In this document: positions 4,740 to 18,131 of the stretch, in pieces
Layout: each line of letters begins with the position of its first letter
Numbering within the stretch: position 1 is the first letter of the stretch
From: a virus
Strand: one strand, 5' to 3'
Virus record (IMG/VR): IMGVR_UViG_3300005577_000077
Coordinates: 1 to 26,405 of that record
Length of the DNA: 26,405 nucleotides
Translations under genes and position numbers: made by a program
Notes under the pieces: model-generated
The model's database searches: none
Told to the model about the DNA's origin: nothing
Seen by the model: only the letters and a program-made list of their open reading frames with translations

Positions 4740-5048
4740 TTATTGGCTAAGCGTCAGGGTTTTCTTCAAATCGAGCTTGATTCGGACGATGATCGATTGA
4801 GTAACGGCCGGCGAAACATTGCCAAGCTGAAACCATGATCGCATTGCCTGTTCTTCGGTCGAGCAGGCCAAAAAAGCATTTTCGGCGTTCATTCGCAGGC
4901 TATTTGCTCCGATTCCATCCAATGCCGCTGCAATAACGCACGATCGGAAGCTTTCTATCAGCCGATCCCGTTGGGCGGTTATTGAATCTTGGGAAAGGGC
5001 CGAAGAGGTCAGCCCGCTAAAAGCAGCTATCAGAAGCCACTTTTTCAC
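4740..5048 (-). CDS. Secreted small protein downstream of the repressor, 102 aa
   Basis: The N-terminus is a typical Sec signal peptide: MKKWLLIAAFSGL followed by a small-residue stretch with a likely cut near residue 19 or 20 (SALSQ). The mature ~82 residues are helical and contain two cysteines (C37 and C62) that could form a disulfide in the periplasm. Its ATG overlaps the repressor stop as ATGA, so it should be made with the repressor in the lysogen. This is the location of rexAB in lambda, which suggests a lysogeny-expressed accessory gene, for example superinfection exclusion at the envelope. That role is inferred from position and export only; no family recognised. Confidence 0.7.
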   Translation of the reverse strand: MKKWLLIAAFSGLTSSALSQDSITAQRDRLIESFRSCVIAAALDGIGANSLRMNAENAFLACSTEEQAMRSWFQLGNVSPAVTQSIIVRIKLDLKKTLTLSQ

Positions 5049-5737
5049 CGGCCCGATTCCTTACCGACCGCGACATGGCACTTCTGCCAGTCGGCTTTCT
5101 TGATAGTGAATTTCTTTGGAGGGTTGGTCTGGCTGACGTGATAGAGCGTGGCTGAAGCGTCCGGGGAGCGCTCCAGGTACTTTAAAATGGCTTCGACCGT
5201 GCCATCCTCCCGAATCCCCTGGAAAACGCACGGGTCGCCTTTTCTGGCGTGCAGGCGGGGATCCACATATGCAATATCGTTTTCATTATACTCACGCGCC
5301 ATCGAATCGCCTTTGACCCGGACGCCATAGCCGTCCCTGATGCCGATCAGGCGTTTTGGGCGACTGGTAAAGGTGAAGGGCTCGTTTTCCAAGACAAGGG
5401 CACCTTTGCCGCCCTGCACGATGGAATAAACGGGCAGGTCCGCTTCCCCCATAAGGTCCGCGCCCGGAATAATATTCAATGTCGGGTTGCGGACAGGCGG
5501 GTTAATCTTCTCAGGTTGGTTAATGTTCCCGTCACTGTGCTGTGAAAGTGAGGGATCAAGCTTGGAAAGGGGAATTTCGAGCACTTGCCCGATTTTGGGG
5601 AAATATTTTGATTTTCGGGTGGCCCCCGCCTCAATTTTTTTGATAGCGACTTGGGAAATGCCCACACGACGGCCCAGCTCGGCTTGCGTCCAGTCGCGCC
5701 TAACTCGTTCTGTTTTAATTAAAATCCCGGGTTCCAT
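5045..5737 (-). CDS. CI-type phage repressor, XRE HTH plus S24 domain, 230 aa
   Basis: Residues 8-60 form an XRE helix-turn-helix (RDWTQAELGRRVGISQVAIKKIEAG). Residues about 100-225 form a LexA/CI-type S24 peptidase domain with VKGDSMAREYNEND holding the serine nucleophile (S145) and VEAILKYL holding the lysine (K186). It represses the early promoters by binding the operators at 4658-4696 and 5751-5813 (inference). I chose ATG 5737 because an upstream ATG at 5782 would place the operators inside the gene and the HTH normally starts near residue 8. The linker lacks an obvious Ala-Gly or Cys-Gly cleavage pair. The predicted transcript starts at or within 2 bases of the ATG and no Shine-Dalgarno is present. 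Confidence 0.92.
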   Translation of the reverse strand: MEPGILIKTERVRRDWTQAELGRRVGISQVAIKKIEAGATRKSKYFPKIGQVLEIPLSKLDPSLSQHSDGNINQPEKINPPVRNPTLNIIPGADLMGEADLPVYSIVQGGKGALVLENEPFTFTSRPKRLIGIRDGYGVRVKGDSMAREYNENDIAYVDPRLHARKGDPCVFQGIREDGTVEAILKYLERSPDASATLYHVSQTNPPKKFTIKKADWQKCHVAVGKESGR

Positions 5738-5745
5738 GGCCCGGT

Positions 5746-5774
5746 AGTATATAACGTCGGTTATTGGTTGTCCT
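5746..5774 (-). promoter_or_regulatory. Repressor maintenance promoter (pRM-like)
   Basis: Read leftward, AGGACA (5769-5774) and TATACT (5746-5751) are separated by 17 bases. Only 8 bases lie between the -10 and the repressor ATG. The weak -35 next to the middle operator fits a promoter helped by repressor bound there, as at lambda pRM; this is inference. Confidence 0.55.
5751..5764. promoter_or_regulatory. Repressor operator, right site nearest the repressor gene
   Basis: ATAACGTCGGTTAT fits ATAAC-N4-GTTAT exactly. It overlaps the -10 of the repressor promoter, so binding here should shut off repressor synthesis, the role of OR3 in lambda. Confidence 0.75.
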
Positions 5775-5775
5775 G

Positions 5776-5789
5776 ATAACATTGGTTCT
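5776..5789. promoter_or_regulatory. Repressor operator, right middle site (one mismatch)
   Basis: ATAACATTGGTTCT matches ATAAC-N4-GTTAT in 9 of 10 fixed positions. It starts 25 bases after the left neighbour and touches the first base of the rightward -35, between the two promoters. Confidence 0.65.
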
Positions 5790-5822: not shown

Positions 5823-6074
5823 ATGGAGAAGTCACCAATTGAACAGGCTATCGATCTGGCAGGCGGTTCCGAGGCGAAACTCGGGGCTGAAATCGGCTTT
5901 TCCCAAGTGGCAGTCAACAAAGCAAGGCGGGCAGGGCGTGCAAGCCCTCGCATGGCCTTGGCAATTCACCGCTTCACAGGCGGTCTAGTTCCAGCTTCCT
6001 CAATTCGTCCGGATATGTGGGCGCGGCCGGAAGATGTGCCGCCGCAAGTCTCCGAACCGGAAGCCGCAGCATGA
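5823..6074 (+). CDS. YdaS/Cro-like HTH regulator, 83 aa
   Basis: The protein is a short helix-turn-helix of the YdaS/Cro type: IEQAIDLAGGSEAKLGAEIG, FSQVAVNKARRAGR and AIHRFTGGLVPASSIRPDMW. The last part, a helix followed by a conserved RPDxW turn, is the family hallmark. It is the first gene of the rightward operon and divergent from the repressor, so it should act as Cro, binding the shared operators. No Shine-Dalgarno is visible before the ATG, which falls at the expected transcription start. The stop overlaps the next plus-strand start as ATGA. Confidence 0.88.
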   Translation: MEKSPIEQAIDLAGGSEAKLGAEIGFSQVAVNKARRAGRASPRMALAIHRFTGGLVPASSIRPDMWARPEDVPPQVSEPEAAA

Positions 6075-6387: not shown

Positions 6388-6762
6388 ATGGAAAAGGCTT
6401 CCGGAGTAGGTGTTGTGCGTAAAGCAATCTCAGTTGTGGCTGGAGTGAGAGAGTGGGGAGATACCCGCGAAAGCTGGTTGGCCCGCGTCCCCCGCAGAGT
6501 TCCGACCGTTACGTTTCGCACCGTGAAGGCATTGTTTTATGGCGAGATTGACGATCCCGAGCACTGGGCGGCGCGCGATATTCGCAGAGCCGCTGAACTT
6601 ATCGAGGCACGTAAAGAGGCGTCCGCCCTTGCATCTCAATTTGAAACAATCGCGGGAGGCCTCGATGCCACGGACGCGGATTTTCATAGCGCGGATGTTG
6701 CTGCGCTTGTCCATGTGGCTCGCCTCCTTCGCGGTAAAGATAGCCCCGGAAATAAAGGCTAA
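6388..6762 (+). CDS. Phage DNA-binding-like protein, 124 aa
   Basis: The N-terminal third has GDTRESWLARVPRRVPTVTF..TVKALFYGE followed by DPEHWAARDIRRAAELIEARK, which reads as a short HTH-like segment (VTFRTVKALFYGE) followed by long helices. The end is a helical DADFHSADVAALVHVARLL motif. I recall similar small proteins in early regions of rhizobial phages, without a named function. A GAGGA site lies about 10 bases before the ATG. It stands between Cro and the GcrA-like gene, so a regulatory role is plausible. Confidence 0.65.
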   Translation: MEKASGVGVVRKAISVVAGVREWGDTRESWLARVPRRVPTVTFRTVKALFYGEIDDPEHWAARDIRRAAELIEARKEASALASQFETIAGGLDATDADFHSADVAALVHVARLLRGKDSPGNKG

Positions 6763-6767
6763 CTAGC

Positions 6768-7313
6768 ATGGATGCAATTTGCAACGATTTCAATTCCGCA
6801 GTGGTCGAACCCTCCGCTGCGGATACGGACGCCGCAACCGCCGCCCACTCCCCTGCGGCGTCCGTTCTTACATGGTGGACCTCAGAACGCATTGACGAAC
6901 TGAAATCGCTTTGGGCCACGGGCGCGTCAGCAGCGATCATAGCCGGCGAAATGCAAACAACCCGCAATGCCGTACTCGGGAAGGTTCACCGGCTTAAGCT
7001 GAACCCGAGAGAATGCCGAAACGGCTATTATTACGGGACGGTCATCACATTTGGGGAAGCAAAGCTTAGGCCGCGAAAGCGCTATCCTGCCCGACCCAAG
7101 ACTGTCTATCCCACGCGAGAAAGCAAGCCACGACTTCGCGTTCCTCGCCCGAATTTCAAACCCGCCATCATGCCCGTCATGTCCGTAATAACAGGCGCAT
7201 TCGTGACCTCCAAAAAGCGCAAGCCAATGATTGGCGAGTTCACCAAAAACCAGCTTCGCGCGATGCTGACACAAGCCATGGTCAATACCGCCGCGATGGA
7301 AATCCTGCCGTGA
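6768..7313 (+). CDS. GcrA-domain cell-cycle regulator homologue, 181 aa
   Basis: Residues about 36-78 match the N-terminal DNA-binding domain of GcrA: WWTSERIDELKSLWATG, SAAIIAGEMQTTRNAVLGKVHRLKL. In alphaproteobacteria GcrA binds sigma-70 holoenzyme and acts at promoters with N6-methylated adenine. Here the domain follows a 35-residue Ala/Thr/Ser-rich leader and is followed by a long basic, proline-rich linker and a short helical tail; the usual C-terminal region of host GcrA is not apparent. An AAAGG site precedes the ATG. It is coupled to a micro-ORF by GTGA and lies just before a DNA adenine methyltransferase, so it may redirect host or phage promoters (inference). Confidence 0.85.
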   Translation: MDAICNDFNSAVVEPSAADTDAATAAHSPAASVLTWWTSERIDELKSLWATGASAAIIAGEMQTTRNAVLGKVHRLKLNPRECRNGYYYGTVITFGEAKLRPRKRYPARPKTVYPTRESKPRLRVPRPNFKPAIMPVMSVITGAFVTSKKRKPMIGEFTKNQLRAMLTQAMVNTAAMEILP

Positions 7314-7474
7314 AACGCAATTCTATCGCTCACCAAATCCATCAAAAGCGCCGTCAACTGCGCGCTGCGAAGCCGAGATCAGAACTCGCGGCGAAATTGT
7401 ACTTCGAATTGCGGCGGTTATTGACCAAACAGCTTCAAGTTGAAAACCGGCTGGATCGGAAACTAGCTGTATGA
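7310..7474 (+). CDS. Basic micro-protein, 54 aa (GTG start)
   Basis: A GTG at 7310 overlaps the GcrA-like stop as GTGA and the stop overlaps the methyltransferase ATG as ATGA, so the frame exactly bridges two real genes. The product is highly basic and looks helical (KRRQLRAAKPRSELAAKLYF, then RRLLTKQLQVENRLDRKL) with a possible coiled coil. No family recognised. The tight fit at both ends is the main support. Confidence 0.6.
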   Translation: MKRNSIAHQIHQKRRQLRAAKPRSELAAKLYFELRRLLTKQLQVENRLDRKLAV

Positions 7475-8088
7475 TTGATCCGTTCGCCGATCTCCCGCGC
7501 GGGCATTACGGGGCGATCCTCGCTGATCCGCCGTGGGGTTTCAATCTGTGGTGGGGTGGTCGGTCGAACAAGACGCCTGCAGGCGTGCCATCACGCGCCA
7601 CGAAACCACATTACGAGGTTATGCGTGAGCCTGAATTGAACGCGCTCCCAGTCGGCACCTTGGCTGCAGATGATTGTGTGCTGTTTCTCTGGACGTGCTG
7701 GCCTGTGCTGGAATGGTCGCTGAGAACTATCGCGGCATGGGGGTTTGAATACAAAACTTGCGGGTTTTGCTGGGTGAAGGGCCACGCCCGCCAAATAGAG
7801 ATGTTTCGGGACGACATCGATCCACACATGACGTTGGGATATTGGACGCGCTCCAACTCCGAGGTTTGCCTGCTGGCGACACGCGGTAAGCCGAAGCGCT
7901 CCGACGCGGGAATCAAACAAGCCATCGTCGAGCCGCGTCGCGAGCACAGCCGCAAGCCCGACTGCGTTCACGGGCGCATCGAAAGACTCGTCGCCGGTCC
8001 CTATCTGGAATTGTTCGCCAGATCCCCGCGCAGCGGCTGGGACGTATGGGGCAATCAGACCGACAAGTTCGCAGAGGCGGCGGAATGA
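7471..8088 (+). CDS. MT-A70 family adenine N6-methyltransferase, 205 aa
   Basis: The catalytic DPPW motif appears at residues 19-22 (ILADPPWGFNLWWG), near the N-terminus as in phage MT-A70 proteins. Later core strands include CVLFLWTCWPVLEWSL and WGFEYKTCGFCWVKGH, and the family region SEVCLLATRGKP, then REHSRKPD and ERLVAGPYLELFARS. It transfers a methyl group from S-adenosylmethionine to adenine in DNA (or less likely RNA). Target sequence cannot be read from the protein. No restriction enzyme gene is adjacent, so it is an orphan, likely for protection or for marking promoters; the GcrA-like gene just upstream makes the second idea attractive. Confidence 0.9.
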   Translation: MIDPFADLPRGHYGAILADPPWGFNLWWGGRSNKTPAGVPSRATKPHYEVMREPELNALPVGTLAADDCVLFLWTCWPVLEWSLRTIAAWGFEYKTCGFCWVKGHARQIEMFRDDIDPHMTLGYWTRSNSEVCLLATRGKPKRSDAGIKQAIVEPRREHSRKPDCVHGRIERLVAGPYLELFARSPRSGWDVWGNQTDKFAEAAE

Positions 8089-8339
8089 GAACCTTTCATT
8101 ATGTTCGTCACCCCGACAAGCTCGACTGGCTGCGCTTGGGCTGGATCATCGCCAAGCCAAACTGCCGAATGTACATGGACGAATTTTCGGTGACTATGGA
8201 ATGGCTGTGCGACTGCGAAATGGTCAAGCCTCGCCCTGCCAGCACTAATAGCACCGCGTTGAACGCAACTTTGAGTAACTGGCTAGTCAGCCGTCAAAAC
8301 CGCGTTCCCGAAACCGCTGGCGAGCGGGAGACCGTGTGA
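8085..8339 (+). CDS. Hypothetical phage protein, 84 aa
   Basis: It starts at ATG 8085, overlapping the methyltransferase stop as ATGA. The N-terminal half (FHYVRHPDKLDWLRLGW, then an aromatic-rich MYMDEFSVTMEWLCDCEM) is short and compact; the rest is polar. No family recognised. Its stop overlaps the next GTG start. Confidence 0.6.
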   Translation: MRTFHYVRHPDKLDWLRLGWIIAKPNCRMYMDEFSVTMEWLCDCEMVKPRPASTNSTALNATLSNWLVSRQNRVPETAGERETV

Positions 8340-8524
8340 GTATTTCCGATAGCAAGCGCGCGGAAATTTCAACCATCGTTCGTGAGATAAAGTCGGGCAC
8401 CGCCTATTTTTCTGGAATGGGCATTTCGATCAATTCCTCGCACGAGATGAATGAAGCTATGGAGATCATCAAGCGCATCGAGCGCCGGATGATTGAGAAT
8501 CAGCAATCCGGGGGAAGCAAATGA
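8336..8524 (+). CDS. Small helical protein, 62 aa (GTG start)
   Basis: The GTG start overlaps the previous stop as GTGA and the stop overlaps the GapR-like ATG as ATGA. The product looks helical with a pattern EISTIVREIKSG and NEAMEIIKRIERRMIENQQ. No family recognised; it may be a partner of its coupled neighbour. Confidence 0.55.
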   Translation: MSISDSKRAEISTIVREIKSGTAYFSGMGISINSSHEMNEAMEIIKRIERRMIENQQSGGSK

Positions 8525-8769
8525 CCGAGCCGAAAGTGGGCGACAACAGCCAGCTTAAAGCGATTGTTGAGCGCATTGAGCATGTTGAGGGCGAGATTAA
8601 AGACCTTCAGAACGACAAGGGCGAGATTTATCAGGAAGCGAAGTCGCACGGTTATGACGTGAAGGTGCTTCGCAAGGTGATTGCCCTCCGCCGCATGGAC
8701 CCGTCTGCTCGTGTCGAGCAGGCTTCCGTCATGGAGGCTTACATTCATGCATTGGGGATGCTGGCGTGA
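8521..8769 (+). CDS. GapR-like nucleoid protein (DUF2312), 82 aa
   Basis: The protein matches the GapR/DUF2312 family over nearly all its length: QLKAIVERIEHVEGEIKDLQ, DKGEIYQEAKSHGYDVKVLRK and ALRRMDPSARVEQ, ending in IHALGM. Host GapR is a chromosome-bound protein that recognises overtwisted DNA ahead of polymerases and supports replication and transcription. The phage copy keeps the long first coiled-coil helix and the YxEAKxxGYDxKxLRKxxxLR DNA-contact region. It is coupled to its neighbours by ATGA overlaps at both ends. It probably coats or compacts phage DNA or supports its replication; that is inference. Confidence 0.9.
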   Translation: MTEPKVGDNSQLKAIVERIEHVEGEIKDLQNDKGEIYQEAKSHGYDVKVLRKVIALRRMDPSARVEQASVMEAYIHALGMLA

Positions 8770-9215
8770 TCGATTTTTACGAAAGCCGCGAATGGCTGGA
8801 CCTACGTTACCGCGTCCTGCAAAAGGCTGCGGGTAGCTGCAAATTATGTGGTTGTCGGGCGACCGCCGATAATCCAATTCAGGTCGATCATATCAAGCCG
8901 CGCTCGCTTCACCCCGAGCTTGCCCTTGTCGAATCCAATATGCAGGTGCTTTGCCAAAGCTGCAACAAGGGCAAGAGCAACAAGGACGATACAGATTGGC
9001 GCTGGAAAGCCTCCCACGAATTAACAGCTGGCATGAACCGAAGGGCTGCTATACTCGCTAGCGCAGATCCGGGACAAAAGGCGAAGTTAGAGCAGCTCGG
9101 TTGGCTCCGTCAAAACGACGTTGATCTGCAAATCCGCCGGGAAGCTGAGAAACAATACAAGGCTCTTTGGAAAGAGGTTGAAGCTGATTGGCTTGCGAAG
9201 GGCGAGCCGAAATGA
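8766..9215 (+). CDS. HNH endonuclease, 149 aa
   Basis: The N-terminal half has the classic layout CKLCG, VDHIKPRSLHPELALVESN, MQVLCQSCNKGKSN. The DH pair, ESN asparagine and the second CxxC give the HNH catalytic and zinc sites. The leading FYESREWLDLRYRVLQK helix is typical of this group. The C-terminal half (about 75-149) is a charged helical extension, possibly for DNA binding. It is coupled to GapR-like upstream and to the DUF1376 gene downstream by ATGA. It could serve replication or recombination; the more usual HNH packaging partner sits next to the terminase, which is not the case here. Confidence 0.87.
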   Translation: MIDFYESREWLDLRYRVLQKAAGSCKLCGCRATADNPIQVDHIKPRSLHPELALVESNMQVLCQSCNKGKSNKDDTDWRWKASHELTAGMNRRAAILASADPGQKAKLEQLGWLRQNDVDLQIRREAEKQYKALWKEVEADWLAKGEPK

Positions 9216-9724
9216 ACCGCCCCTGGATGCCCCTTTATGTCGGCGATTACCTTGGCGATACGGGGCACCTGACCACGACGCAGCATGGGGCCTACCTTCT
9301 CCTGATGATGCACTACTGGCGCAAGGGCGAGCTTCCAGACGACGATAAACAGCTGTCGAAGATCACCAAGCTACCACTGAAGGTTTGGACTGAATACCGG
9401 GAGACCTTGCAGGATTTTTTCTACGATGGATGGCGACATAAGCGGATCGATGCCGAGCTACAGCGAATGACCAAGGTTTCCAATGCCAGAGCGATTGCTG
9501 GGCAAAAGGGAGGAATTGGTTCGGCACTTTCTCGAATAAAGCTGGAAAATGCCTCGCTATCCAAACACGTCCCTCGCCAAGCAATTGCTTACCAAATGCC
9601 CAGCAACGCTACAGCAATCGTCAACCACTCACACTCACAAAGTAAGAAAGAAGAAGGGGCCACCAAGGGGAAAATAACCGCGACCCCCGAGCTAGAGGCC
9701 ATTCTTTCCAAACAGCGAGCCTGA
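9212..9724 (+). CDS. DUF1376 (YdaU-like) protein, 170 aa
   Basis: Residues 1-100 match DUF1376: MPLYVGDYLGDTGHLTTTQHG, YLLLMMHYWRKGELPDDD, KITKLPLKVW, then the end of the domain DGWRHKRIDAEL. These proteins lie in phage replication blocks and have a winged-helix look like replication initiators; the exact activity is not settled. I chose ATG 9212, which overlaps the HNH stop as ATGA; an earlier ATG at 9188 would only add residues inside the previous gene. The tail from about residue 100 is low complexity. By position it is the best replication-initiation candidate in the window. Confidence 0.82.
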   Translation: MNRPWMPLYVGDYLGDTGHLTTTQHGAYLLLMMHYWRKGELPDDDKQLSKITKLPLKVWTEYRETLQDFFYDGWRHKRIDAELQRMTKVSNARAIAGQKGGIGSALSRIKLENASLSKHVPRQAIAYQMPSNATAIVNHSHSQSKKEEGATKGKITATPELEAILSKQRA

Positions 9725-15472: not shown

Positions 15473-15624
15473 TCATAACCGAACGCTGGCGGATGCAACA
15501 GCATCTCGGGCATGGCGAACGGCTGTTCATCGTCCCTGATCTTGAACTGCAAGAGCCGGTGCCGTGGGGCCAGGTCCCCGACGTGATTGAAGCCGTCAAA
15601 CAACACATCGCGTCGCTTCAATGA
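15421..15624 (+). CDS. Hypothetical protein of the fibre block, 67 aa
   Basis: A small protein (AGIIDRNGGLRVVITERW, then LFIVPDLELQEPVPWG). No family recognised. Its stop overlaps the next gene start as ATGA. No clear ribosome site; it is probably read by coupling. Confidence 0.6.
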   Translation: MPSAVAGIIDRNGGLRVVITERWRMQQHLGHGERLFIVPDLELQEPVPWGQVPDVIEAVKQHIASLQ

Positions 15625-18131
15625 CGCAAATTTTCCTGACAACCGCGTCAACTTCGCCTTGGACTGTTCCGGGGGATTTCACGGCGGCCGGGCATACGGT
15701 CGAACTCATTGGCGCGGGTGCCGACGGCTTAACAGGAACAACAGGCGCAAATCCAAAAGGAGCTTCTGGAAGTTCTGGCGGCAATTACCGCAAGCTCACT
15801 TATAGCAGTGGCACTGTCGGGTCATCCATCCCGTTCGTTGTCGATACGGGCAACAACGGTCTGGCTACAAAATGGCAGAGCAACGGCGTTGATGGATTAG
15901 GCAATAACCAAGCCGGAAGCGGCGGAAGCGGCGCGAGTCAGGGGACGAACGGCGACAATGGCACTCCCGCAATTACATACGCGGGAACCCTCTCGTTCCT
16001 TGGCGGTCCCGGCGGTGCAAATGCCACGAGCAATAGAGGGGGCGGCGGAGGAGGAGGCGCCGCCGGGCCAAACGGTGCAGGCGGCGCAGGGGGTGTTCCC
16101 GCCAGCACTGGAGGGGCGGGCGGCGGCGGTGCTGATGGCGGTTCTGCCGGTGGCGCGGGTTCTGCCGGTGCATTCGGTGCAGGCGGTAATGGTCCGGGCG
16201 GTACAGGAGGTGGCGCTACATCAGGCGCGGCCGGGACGGCGGGCACAGGCGGCGGCGGTGCTGGCGCCAGCGCGGTAGCCTCTGGTTCGTCCGGTACGGC
16301 GGGTGCAGGCTCGGCGCATACATCAGGCGGCGGGTTTGACGCTACTCACGGCCCCGGCGCTGGCGGCGGTGGTGGCGGACAGGTAACGGGCAGCGGCACT
16401 GGCGAAAGCAGCACGGGCGGCAACGGCGCGGCCTTTGGCGGCGGTGGCGGTGGTACTGGCGGTCTACGCGGGTCGGGCACGCAAACGCCGGGCCTCGGGG
16501 CGGACGGTCTTATCGTTATCACCTATACGCCGAGTGCGGGGGGTAGCGTTGGTGCGGCGTCGGGCACTGGAACGGCAACGGCAGTCGGTGCCTCTACGGC
16601 GGCTTCTCCAGCTTCCGCATCAGGAACCGGCTCGGCATCAGGTGTTGGCAAAAGCACCGCAGTAAGTATTGGCTCCGCGTCTGGCACGGGTACGGCGACC
16701 GGCGTTGGCAACGCGCTCATACCCGCGACAGGTTCGGCATCGGGCACGGGGACGGCGCTTGCAGTCGGCAGTTCGACCGCTGCCTCTGTTGGCTCAGCCA
16801 GCGGGACCGGGACGGCTACCGGAATCGGAGCAAGTACCGCTGCTGCTGTTGGCGCAGCAGCCGGGACAGGATCAGCGACAGGAATTGGCGCCAGCACCGC
16901 AATGGCAGTCGGTACGGCCGCGGGAACGGGAACAGCCGCGGGCGTAGCTTCATCTCCTGGTAGCGTCGGTTCTGCCTCGGGTGTGGGAACAGCAACCGGT
17001 GTCGGAAATGCTCTTGCACTGGCCGTGGGTTCGTCCGCTGGGACCGGGACAGCATCGGGTATCGGAGCCTCAACTGCCGCAAGCGTCGGCTCTGCATCGG
17101 GCACCGGCACTGCAACTGGAATTGGTGCATCCACCGCAAGTTCGGTCGGAACAGCAAATGGCACGGGTATCGCATCCGGTATCGGTGCCGCGACGGCTGC
17201 ATCCGTTGGATCGGCGGGCGGCACGGGAACGGCGACAGGAATAGGGGCGTCAACCGCCGCTTCGGTTGGTTCGGCCTCGGGCGTTGGCACCGCGACGGGC
17301 ATAGCATCTGCCGTTGGAAGTATAGGCGCGGCTTCCGGCGTCGGGACAGCCACAGGGGTAGGGGCTTCGACCGGAGCCAGCATCGGCGTAGCATCGGGCC
17401 TCGGTTCGGCCTCGGGCATTGGGACCAGCACGGCGGTTGCGACCGGGTCTGCATCTGGCGTCGGGACCGCCTCGGGTATTGGTGCTGCAACTTCGGCCTC
17501 CTTGGGGGTCTCAAGTGGAACGGGGATCGCGTCTGGCACGGGAGCGGCGACTTCAACCGCAATCGGCGTTTCAAGCGGCGTCGGTACTACGAGCGCGACC
17601 GGAGCAAGCACCGCTGCAAGTATCGGTGTGGCGAGCGGCATTGGAACGGCTACTGCAACATCTGCCGGGTCTTCTATCGGTGTCGCGGTCGGAACTGGCA
17701 CGGCAACTGGTTTCAGCGCCTCCATTGTCGCAGCCGTTGGTCTAGCGGCGGGCGTTGGAAGCGCTTCTGGAATTGGATCAACGGGCGCTGATGCAATCGG
17801 CGCCAGTGGCCGGGCTACCAAGCCGCATAGCGGACATTCCTCAGCTTGGAAGCCCCTCAAGGCCCGCAAGAAGAAGCGCGAAGAGGAACTGGAGGAATTA
17901 GCCGAACAGCTCCGCGCGCTCGCGGCGGAAATTCCAAAGATCAATGCGCCGGCGGTTCAACCAATAGTTCAATTCGAACCCCTGATATCGGAATTTGTAG
18001 ATCGGGAACGGACCTACCAAAGCGTCAAGAATATCATTTCGCGGGCCAAGGCCGACGCGGATTATCAGCTTCTATTACAGCGCCAGCGGGACGAGGACGA
18101 CGAGGACGCGGCCTTTCTGCTGTTGCAATGA
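15621..18131 (+). CDS. Glycine-rich repeat protein, fibre-like, 836 aa
   Basis: Residues about 1-310 form a glycine-rich domain (long GGGGGGG and AGGAG runs) ending in a LIVITYTP strand, a layout known from phage fibre tips. Residues 311 to about 727 hold some 21 copies of a 20-residue Gly/Ala/Ser/Thr repeat, such as SASGTGTATGIGASTAASVG. The last ~100 residues are charged and helical (RKKKREEELEELAEQLRALA), with an acidic end. Start is coupled by ATGA to the previous gene. I infer a surface fibre that may bind the host or a polymer; no receptor motif is seen. The opposite strand has a long open frame from the repeat, which I treat as a shadow. Confidence 0.75.
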   Translation: MTQIFLTTASTSPWTVPGDFTAAGHTVELIGAGADGLTGTTGANPKGASGSSGGNYRKLTYSSGTVGSSIPFVVDTGNNGLATKWQSNGVDGLGNNQAGSGGSGASQGTNGDNGTPAITYAGTLSFLGGPGGANATSNRGGGGGGGAAGPNGAGGAGGVPASTGGAGGGGADGGSAGGAGSAGAFGAGGNGPGGTGGGATSGAAGTAGTGGGGAGASAVASGSSGTAGAGSAHTSGGGFDATHGPGAGGGGGGQVTGSGTGESSTGGNGAAFGGGGGGTGGLRGSGTQTPGLGADGLIVITYTPSAGGSVGAASGTGTATAVGASTAASPASASGTGSASGVGKSTAVSIGSASGTGTATGVGNALIPATGSASGTGTALAVGSSTAASVGSASGTGTATGIGASTAAAVGAAAGTGSATGIGASTAMAVGTAAGTGTAAGVASSPGSVGSASGVGTATGVGNALALAVGSSAGTGTASGIGASTAASVGSASGTGTATGIGASTASSVGTANGTGIASGIGAATAASVGSAGGTGTATGIGASTAASVGSASGVGTATGIASAVGSIGAASGVGTATGVGASTGASIGVASGLGSASGIGTSTAVATGSASGVGTASGIGAATSASLGVSSGTGIASGTGAATSTAIGVSSGVGTTSATGASTAASIGVASGIGTATATSAGSSIGVAVGTGTATGFSASIVAAVGLAAGVGSASGIGSTGADAIGASGRATKPHSGHSSAWKPLKARKKKREEELEELAEQLRALAAEIPKINAPAVQPIVQFEPLISEFVDRERTYQSVKNIISRAKADADYQLLLQRQRDEDDEDAAFLLLQ
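16551..17801 (+). repeat. About 21 tandem copies of a degenerate 60-bp coding repeat
   Basis: The protein repeat averages 20 residues (a few of 18-21) and is built as SASGTGTATGIGASTAASVG with shifts among T, S, A, V and I. At the DNA level the copies are not identical, so they are old or diversified. It encodes the middle of the 836-residue protein. Confidence 0.85.

Follow-up and report, generated by a model that had tools for sequence, protein, structure and literature searches.

Recurrent neighbouring of GcrA-type genes with adenine methyltransferase genes of unrelated families in phages of Alphaproteobacteria

We found that genes for GcrA-type proteins stand next to genes for adenine methyltransferases in phage loci in a conserved and non-random manner. 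GcrA is a host protein which reads adenine methylation, GANTC being the site that is read; it is a sigma-70 cofactor, which binds m6A-methylated GANTC and contacts domain 2 of sigma-70. The arrangement was analyzed starting from a stretch of viral DNA of 26,405 nucleotides (positions 1 to 26,405 of IMG/VR record IMGVR_UViG_3300005577_000077; hereafter the window). We give an even chance to the reading that the two genes form a recurrent writer/reader module, composed of an adenine methyltransferase and a GcrA-type reader, in an early, replication-proximal operon of alphaproteobacterial phages, and that the reader of the window, a helix-turn-helix (HTH) domain, would act by occupancy and by competition with host GcrA.

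The window represents part of the genome of a temperate tailed phage with an alphaproteobacterial host, and over the 18,085 bases compared it was identical to IMG/VR contig IMGVR_UViG_3300005535_000008 (44,049 bp). As listed in Table 1, a gene for a CI-like repressor lies divergent to the early operon, which marks the phage as temperate, and the Cro-like gene has a homologue in the GcrA locus L169 (47% over 70 aa). The 836-aa protein encoded at 15621-18131 on the plus strand, which combines a glycine-rich part with near repeats of the GTATGVGASTAASVGSASG type in a long array, is likely a tail or surface protein. Two ORFs on the minus strand (929-1336 and 2264-2752) were read as HNH-type endonucleases, in addition to the HNH gene of the table. 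ORF, profile and junction analysis revealed a rightward cluster of eight genes which runs from 6768 past 9215 into the DUF1376 gene. The seven consecutive junctions from gcrA/54-aa ORF to HNH/DUF1376 are all 4-bp overlaps (GTGA or ATGA), the DUF1376 ATG lying at 9212, and the eight genes are therefore probably translated as one coupled unit. The coupling which the first-pass annotation had described for all junctions between 7310 and 8769 was thus found throughout, and it continues beyond 8769 into the DUF1376 gene. Among the small ORFs, the 54-aa ORF has a weakly similar counterpart (44% over 41 aa) at the equivalent place in contig L003, and ORFs similar to the 84-aa ORF occupy the equivalent place in L003 and L004, while no homologue of the 62-aa ORF was noticed in the loci compared. 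The 124-aa ORF matched no Pfam or NCBIfam family; it has homologues of 46-49% identity in L010, L025 and L178/L179, all of which carry GcrA and MT-A70, and is a candidate for a further member of the module. Since the DUF1376 gene alone could be aligned at the nucleotide level to DNA of phage relatives, we can only infer that the host belongs to the Hyphomicrobiales or their relatives.

Table 1. Features of the window, and methylases of the phiLM21_p027 type beside GcrA in other loci
Feature	Coordinates	Strand	Basis
CI-like prophage repressor (HTH and S24/LexA-type C-terminal part)	5045-5782	-	sequence reading of translation
Cro-like small HTH protein, first gene of the rightward early region	5823-6074	+	translation reading, position
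124-aa ORF just upstream of gcrA	6388-6762	+	ORF, homologues in other loci
GcrA-like protein, 181 aa	6768-7313	+	PF07750, E 6e-14, 53.2 bits
54-aa ORF, lying between the genes of GcrA and methylase and coupled to each	7310-7474	+	4-bp overlaps
MT-A70 family adenine methyltransferase, 205 aa, intact DPPW	7471-8088	+	PF05063, E 7e-23, 81.9 bits
Unassigned 84-aa ORF after methylase (97 aa if the start is 8046)	8085-8339	+	ORF, overlaps
Unassigned 62-aa ORF	8336-8524	+	ORF, overlaps
GapR (DUF2312/UPF0335) homologue, 82 aa	8521-8769	+	PF10073, E 1.8e-26, 91.9 bits
HNH endonuclease, coupled to GapR	8766-9215	+	PF01844, E 1.7e-9; PHROG 144, E 4.4e-19
DUF1376 primosomal/replication protein, coupled to HNH	9212-9724	+	PF07120, E 1.7e-18; PHROG 3992 'primosomal protein', E 7.4e-25
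Large terminase	from 10774	+	translation reading
Portal	from 12454	+	translation reading
phiLM21_p027 relatives beside GcrA	L161:7532-8374; L168:9282-10001; L173/L174; L176:10345-11064; L196:10487-11125; L209:10147-11166		

The GcrA domain recognized at first pass is well founded, as the PF07750 score lies far above the curated cut-off of 26.9 bits; the MT-A70 and GapR scores of Table 1 likewise surpass their curated Pfam cut-offs by a wide margin. An N-terminal GcrA DNA-binding domain was found by this profile, by a match to the solved DNA-binding domain of GcrA (PDB 5yiu, E 1.6e-8) and in an AlphaFold model, which is confident only in the three-helix HTH and leaves the C-terminal part unstructured. 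The HTH occupies residues 37-88, and its recognition helix, TRNAVLGKVHRL, shows a single difference from that of Caulobacter GcrA within the aligned stretch. The C-terminal sigma-interacting domain (SID; the C-x-W/F-P...FCG...YC..H region), on the other hand, is missing: the PF07750 match spans only positions 3-55 of 155 with nothing beyond, the Cys/His motif was not found in the alignment of the protein, and no recognizable SID was present in any frame of the window, in which a frameshifted copy was also sought and not found. Against the NCBIfam GcrA equivalog the protein scored 46 bits, far under the cut-off of 280. Judged by its sequence, the protein is half a GcrA, shortened to what is predicted to be a methyl-DNA-binding HTH, and the earlier suggestion that the system directs the host polymerase finds no support for this phage, the SID being absent. 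Among 80 viral GcrAs the strict SID motif was seen in 52, and by eye a substituted region was recognized in 27 of the other 28, leaving L172, whose gene is cut by the contig end, as the one without a visible SID region. Since the ranking of these 80 rested on their similarity to a full-length protein, SID-less forms are under-sampled in these counts. A direct search of phages and viral contigs with the window GcrA matched its own contig only, since no other protein shares its C-terminal half and the HTH by itself does not offer enough length, a difficulty which was solved by searching with an alignment. L010 and L264 show that a single phage may have two or more genes for a GcrA-like HTH protein.

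The partner gene encodes a full-length MT-A70 domain with DPPW, PF05063 being matched over its entire length (1-172 of 172). The CcrM-type N6_N4 domain PF01555 was not found in this protein, which upholds its initial assignment to the MT-A70 and not the CcrM type. It matched PHROG 359 'DNA methyltransferase' with an E of 2.6e-70 and was labelled MTase_II by PADLOC. DPPW and 19 other columns were invariant in an alignment of 28 relatives, and the core of the AlphaFold model is confident (mean pLDDT 81.8). In a Foldseek search with this model the closest solved fold was METTL3 (E 1.1e-15), with MTA1c farther down the list. The enzyme probably methylates adenine in DNA, although known relatives act on either DNA or RNA. 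Two phage enzymes share the family and the DPPW active site with it: PhiBZS1_p32, which methylates GATC in DNA (PMC7556043), and M.EcoPA8orf6770P of phage phiPA8, which together with PNB-2, the product of the upstream gene, methylates 16S rRNA in E. coli (PMC10810198). Both belong to gammaproteobacterial phages, whose MT-A70 enzymes of this kind are ~38-40% identical to that of the window, and they have no reported GcrA partner; neither targets GANTC, which speaks against a writer/reader module. A divergent MT-A70 lineage is found 0.5-1.6 kb downstream of GcrA in L139, L140, L141, L145, L147, L149 and L150; the catalytic motif of L139 is DPPT in place of DPPW, hence this protein may be inactive or altered.

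The first reading had placed the GcrA-domain and methylase genes almost side by side, and they are indeed 157 bp apart, the gap being filled by the coupled 54-aa ORF. The window therefore contains what we defined as the module, namely a GcrA-domain gene and an adenine-type methylase gene not more than 3 kb apart on the same strand. We searched 50 viral contigs, drawn from the relatives of MT-A70 and GapR, over their whole length for a GcrA above the family cut-off, and nearly every contig with such a GcrA carried MT-A70 on the same strand at a distance of a few kb; for G025 this holds only if the contig is circular, its two genes being found at opposite ends. Furthermore, a GcrA-anchored set was built from the best 80 of 422 viral GcrA relatives, giving 80 loci in 61 clusters at 80% identity, and HMMs of three methylase types (MT-A70, N6_N4 and phiLM21-type) were run over their 10-kb flanks. 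An adenine-type methylase was found within 10 kb of GcrA in 31 of the 61 clusters, within 3 kb in 28 of these 31 and on the same strand also in 28. The methylase lay within 500 bp and on the same strand in 15 of the 31, whereas random genes of these loci would give 1.6, or 2.8 if the draw is limited to the same strand; none of 20,000 draws attained this level of adjacency (p<5e-5). The GcrAs and methylases in these tests were taken as stop-to-stop ORFs, and the crude longest-ORF gene calls, which misplace some genes in GC-rich loci, were used for the random anchors only. The query alignment consisted of GcrAs associated with MT-A70, and the MT-A70 fraction could therefore be inflated; this cannot account for the other families, since the methylase types which had no part in finding the loci (phiLM21-type and N6_N4) alone gave 9 of 19 against 1.7 expected, and the phiLM21-type by itself 7 of 10 against 0.56. 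The order GcrA, small ORF, MT-A70, small ORF, GapR recurs in L003. On the MT-A70 tree GcrA adjacency requires at least 11 changes, 6 of them forced by well-supported branches, which implies that it is not one inherited arrangement. About half of the 61 clusters had no methylase of the three types in their flanks, and none of the three was found within ~4 kb of GcrA in the five phage records checked (phiCbK, RHph_X2_24, Pam5, Ssp-JY42 and a Manatee Spring podovirus). The first-pass annotation had let its proposal depend in part on a conserved neighbourhood in relatives; this was sought and is present, as the 15 of 31 against 2.8 demonstrate.

Three unrelated types of methylase thus stand beside GcrA, namely MT-A70, the CcrM-like N6_N4 enzymes and relatives of phiLM21_p027. 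The published specificity of phiLM21_p027, and of further phage methylases that share its motif, is GANTC; the paper makes no mention of GcrA (PMC5537653). Similar to the methylase of the window, these are phage adenine methylases encoded upstream of replication genes, but they constitute a separate family with an NPPF motif, as against MT-A70 with DPPW. GcrA has a homologue of phiLM21_p027 as its direct neighbour in L161, L168, L174, L176, L196 and L209, and the homologues so placed gave no Pfam match; N6_N4 methylases adjoin GcrA in L136 and L166. Two overlapping putative methylase ORFs follow the phage GcrA in L205 (10608-11710), with a weak phiLM21-type match and a PF05869 Dam match. In L261, which has the DUF1376 gene in common with the window phage, a phiLM21-type methylase lies upstream of GapR, in the place taken by MT-A70 in the window. 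That different enzymes fill one slot beside one reader suggests a shared function.

We also examined bacterial genomes. In Hyphomicrobiales, 42 MT-A70 genes were found in 33 of 199 genomes, and in none of these 33 did the best-scoring GcrA copy, presumed to be the cellular one, lie within 10 kb of MT-A70. Of ~13 secondary GcrA copies in the same genomes, three (G102, G225 and G239) lie not more than 2.1 kb from MT-A70 against ~0.02 by chance as estimated from genome size, G102 having been chosen for this arrangement, and in a fourth case (G246) the two genes share a strand and are separated by 5.7 kb. G102, a Hyphomicrobium MAG, has all three genes, GcrA, MT-A70 and GapR (L216). No GcrA was nearby for 38 or 39 of the 42 genes, which implies that the pairing is preferred and not obligatory. 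As for the sites themselves, GANTC is strongly depleted in the window (41 sites against 111 expected) and GATC is not; most of the related phage loci show this pattern too, in agreement with hosts that possess CcrM. We rejected this depletion as evidence for the module, because it is equally strong in GcrA phages lacking MT-A70 and is general regardless of MT-A70 or GcrA. A promoter scan of the window gave 5 sigma-70-like sites against 4.8 expected, and no GANTC-rich promoter was seen.

A homologue of GapR, a nucleoid protein that binds overtwisted DNA, had been noted three genes on at the outset, and the third gene after the methylase indeed matches PF10073 over positions 3-72 of 72, a full-length GapR DNA-binding domain, and the solved GapR structure (PDB 6cfx, E 6.4e-20); it is a short phage copy, scoring 69.6 bits against the Caulobacter equivalog of NCBIfam with its cut-off of 140. 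A search for the gene trio in other phages had been proposed, and besides the window and L216 the trio was found in L003, L010/L011, L025, L157 and L207. The case for GapR as a part of the system is weak: the shared operon and these relatives speak for it, but in a control no methylase lay within 3 kb in any of 31 other GapR-anchored viral loci. On this control we rejected the idea that GapR is an obligate third member. Phages of Alphaproteobacteria commonly encode GapR (151 phage records), and the copy in the window is one of many phage homologues, with no specific tie to methylases. Given this abundance and the control, we regard it as a neighbour from the replication side that shares its coupling with HNH and DUF1376, and these three are most likely replication-side genes of the operon and not the core of the writer/reader pair.

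The strongest alternative, possible in our view though not probable, is that the genes are independent cargo of a compact early region, MT-A70 serving anti-restriction and the GcrA-like and GapR-like proteins being separate host mimics which share nothing more than the operon. MT-A70 without GcrA is widespread in phages (348 records, mostly of other hosts), as is GapR, and the GcrA clusters and chromosomal MT-A70 genes that lack a partner fit this explanation as well. It does not account for an adjacency which greatly exceeds that of random same-strand genes from these loci, is seen with unrelated families of methylase and has arisen repeatedly, nor for the lack of any such adjacency in GapR, another gene common in these phages. 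It is unlikely that the GcrA-like HTH is instead a DNA-targeting subunit of an MT-A70 heteromer. MT-A70 enzymes usually need partners, as the phiPA8 enzyme needs PNB-2, MTA1c structures are among the fold matches, and the GcrA of the window is reduced to the HTH, with a small coupled ORF adjoining the methylase; yet related pairs keep the SID, for which such a subunit would have no need, and phiLM21-type and N6_N4-type enzymes fill the equivalent slot. Still less credible is a methylase that acts on RNA, for example 16S rRNA, and writes no mark for GcrA: the phiPA8 precedent and the closeness of the fold to METTL3 speak for it, while PhiBZS1_p32 acts on DNA and DNA methylases occupy the slot in related loci. 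Protection by MT-A70 against the coupled HNH endonuclease, to which the position of HNH in the operon and the PADLOC label could point, is highly improbable, since the methylase is not kept with a cognate endonuclease (among the loci compared, the methylase has homologues in 148 and HNH in only 7, though most loci had been fetched with the methylase as bait) and the closest PHROG matches of HNH are generic phage HNH families.

Under the writer/reader reading which we prefer, the methylase would mark adenines in phage DNA, host DNA or both after phage replication begins. The marked sites would be those which GcrA-type HTHs recognize, so that the reader acts only on marked DNA and would make transcription dependent on replication and on the state of methylation. 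Most relatives have a reader with the SID, which could plausibly recruit polymerase as host GcrA does. In the window phage the HTH may occupy methylated sites, compete with host GcrA, or repress or insulate phage promoters, occupancy and competition being the simplest action in view of the missing SID. We hold only tentatively a bolder form of this proposal, namely a complete and self-contained epigenetic circuit which copies the GcrA/CcrM logic, with a writer swappable among unrelated families and, in the window, a reader that retains only methyl-DNA binding, by which it would hijack or block host GcrA wherever promoters are methylated.

The window resembles the GcrA/CcrM circuit of Caulobacter crescentus (PMC3667746, PMC7403470) in its GcrA-type HTH with a near-identical recognition helix and in its adenine methylase partner, and differs in being phage-encoded, with the genes adjacent in one operon, with MT-A70 in place of CcrM and with a GcrA that lacks the SID. 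GcrA family proteins of alphaproteobacterial phages are known from phiCbK (gp222; PMC3556154) and Atu_ph08 (gp5; PMC6630229) and were treated as lone mimics of the host cell cycle; phiCbK, unlike the window, has no such methylase near GcrA, as noted above, while for Atu_ph08 a cytosine methylase (gp7) is listed two genes from gp5 (PMC6630229). GcrA homologues and GANTC methylases of phages both appear in a 2022 paper (PMC9437464), each as its own indication that phages take an interest in the cell cycle. In the mostly open-access literature that we searched there was no report of a phage GcrA-methylase pairing, nor of GcrA with phage MT-A70 or GapR. Phage GcrA and phage GANTC methylases were each already known and explained separately as host mimicry. 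The repeated pairing and the interchangeable methylase families turn these observations into one joint, testable hypothesis of a phage-run, methylation-dependent transcription switch, and the pairing provides a defined set of gene pairs for testing. The hypothesis predicts that the MT-A70 enzymes of these phages write a mark which the GcrA HTH recognizes, a target unreported for this family in the same body of literature. The occurrence of one pairing with unrelated methylases in many phages suggests that phages build their own version of the host epigenetic switch, and, if true, this would show how a phage could tell replicated from unreplicated DNA, or how it could seize a cell-cycle regulator of its host.
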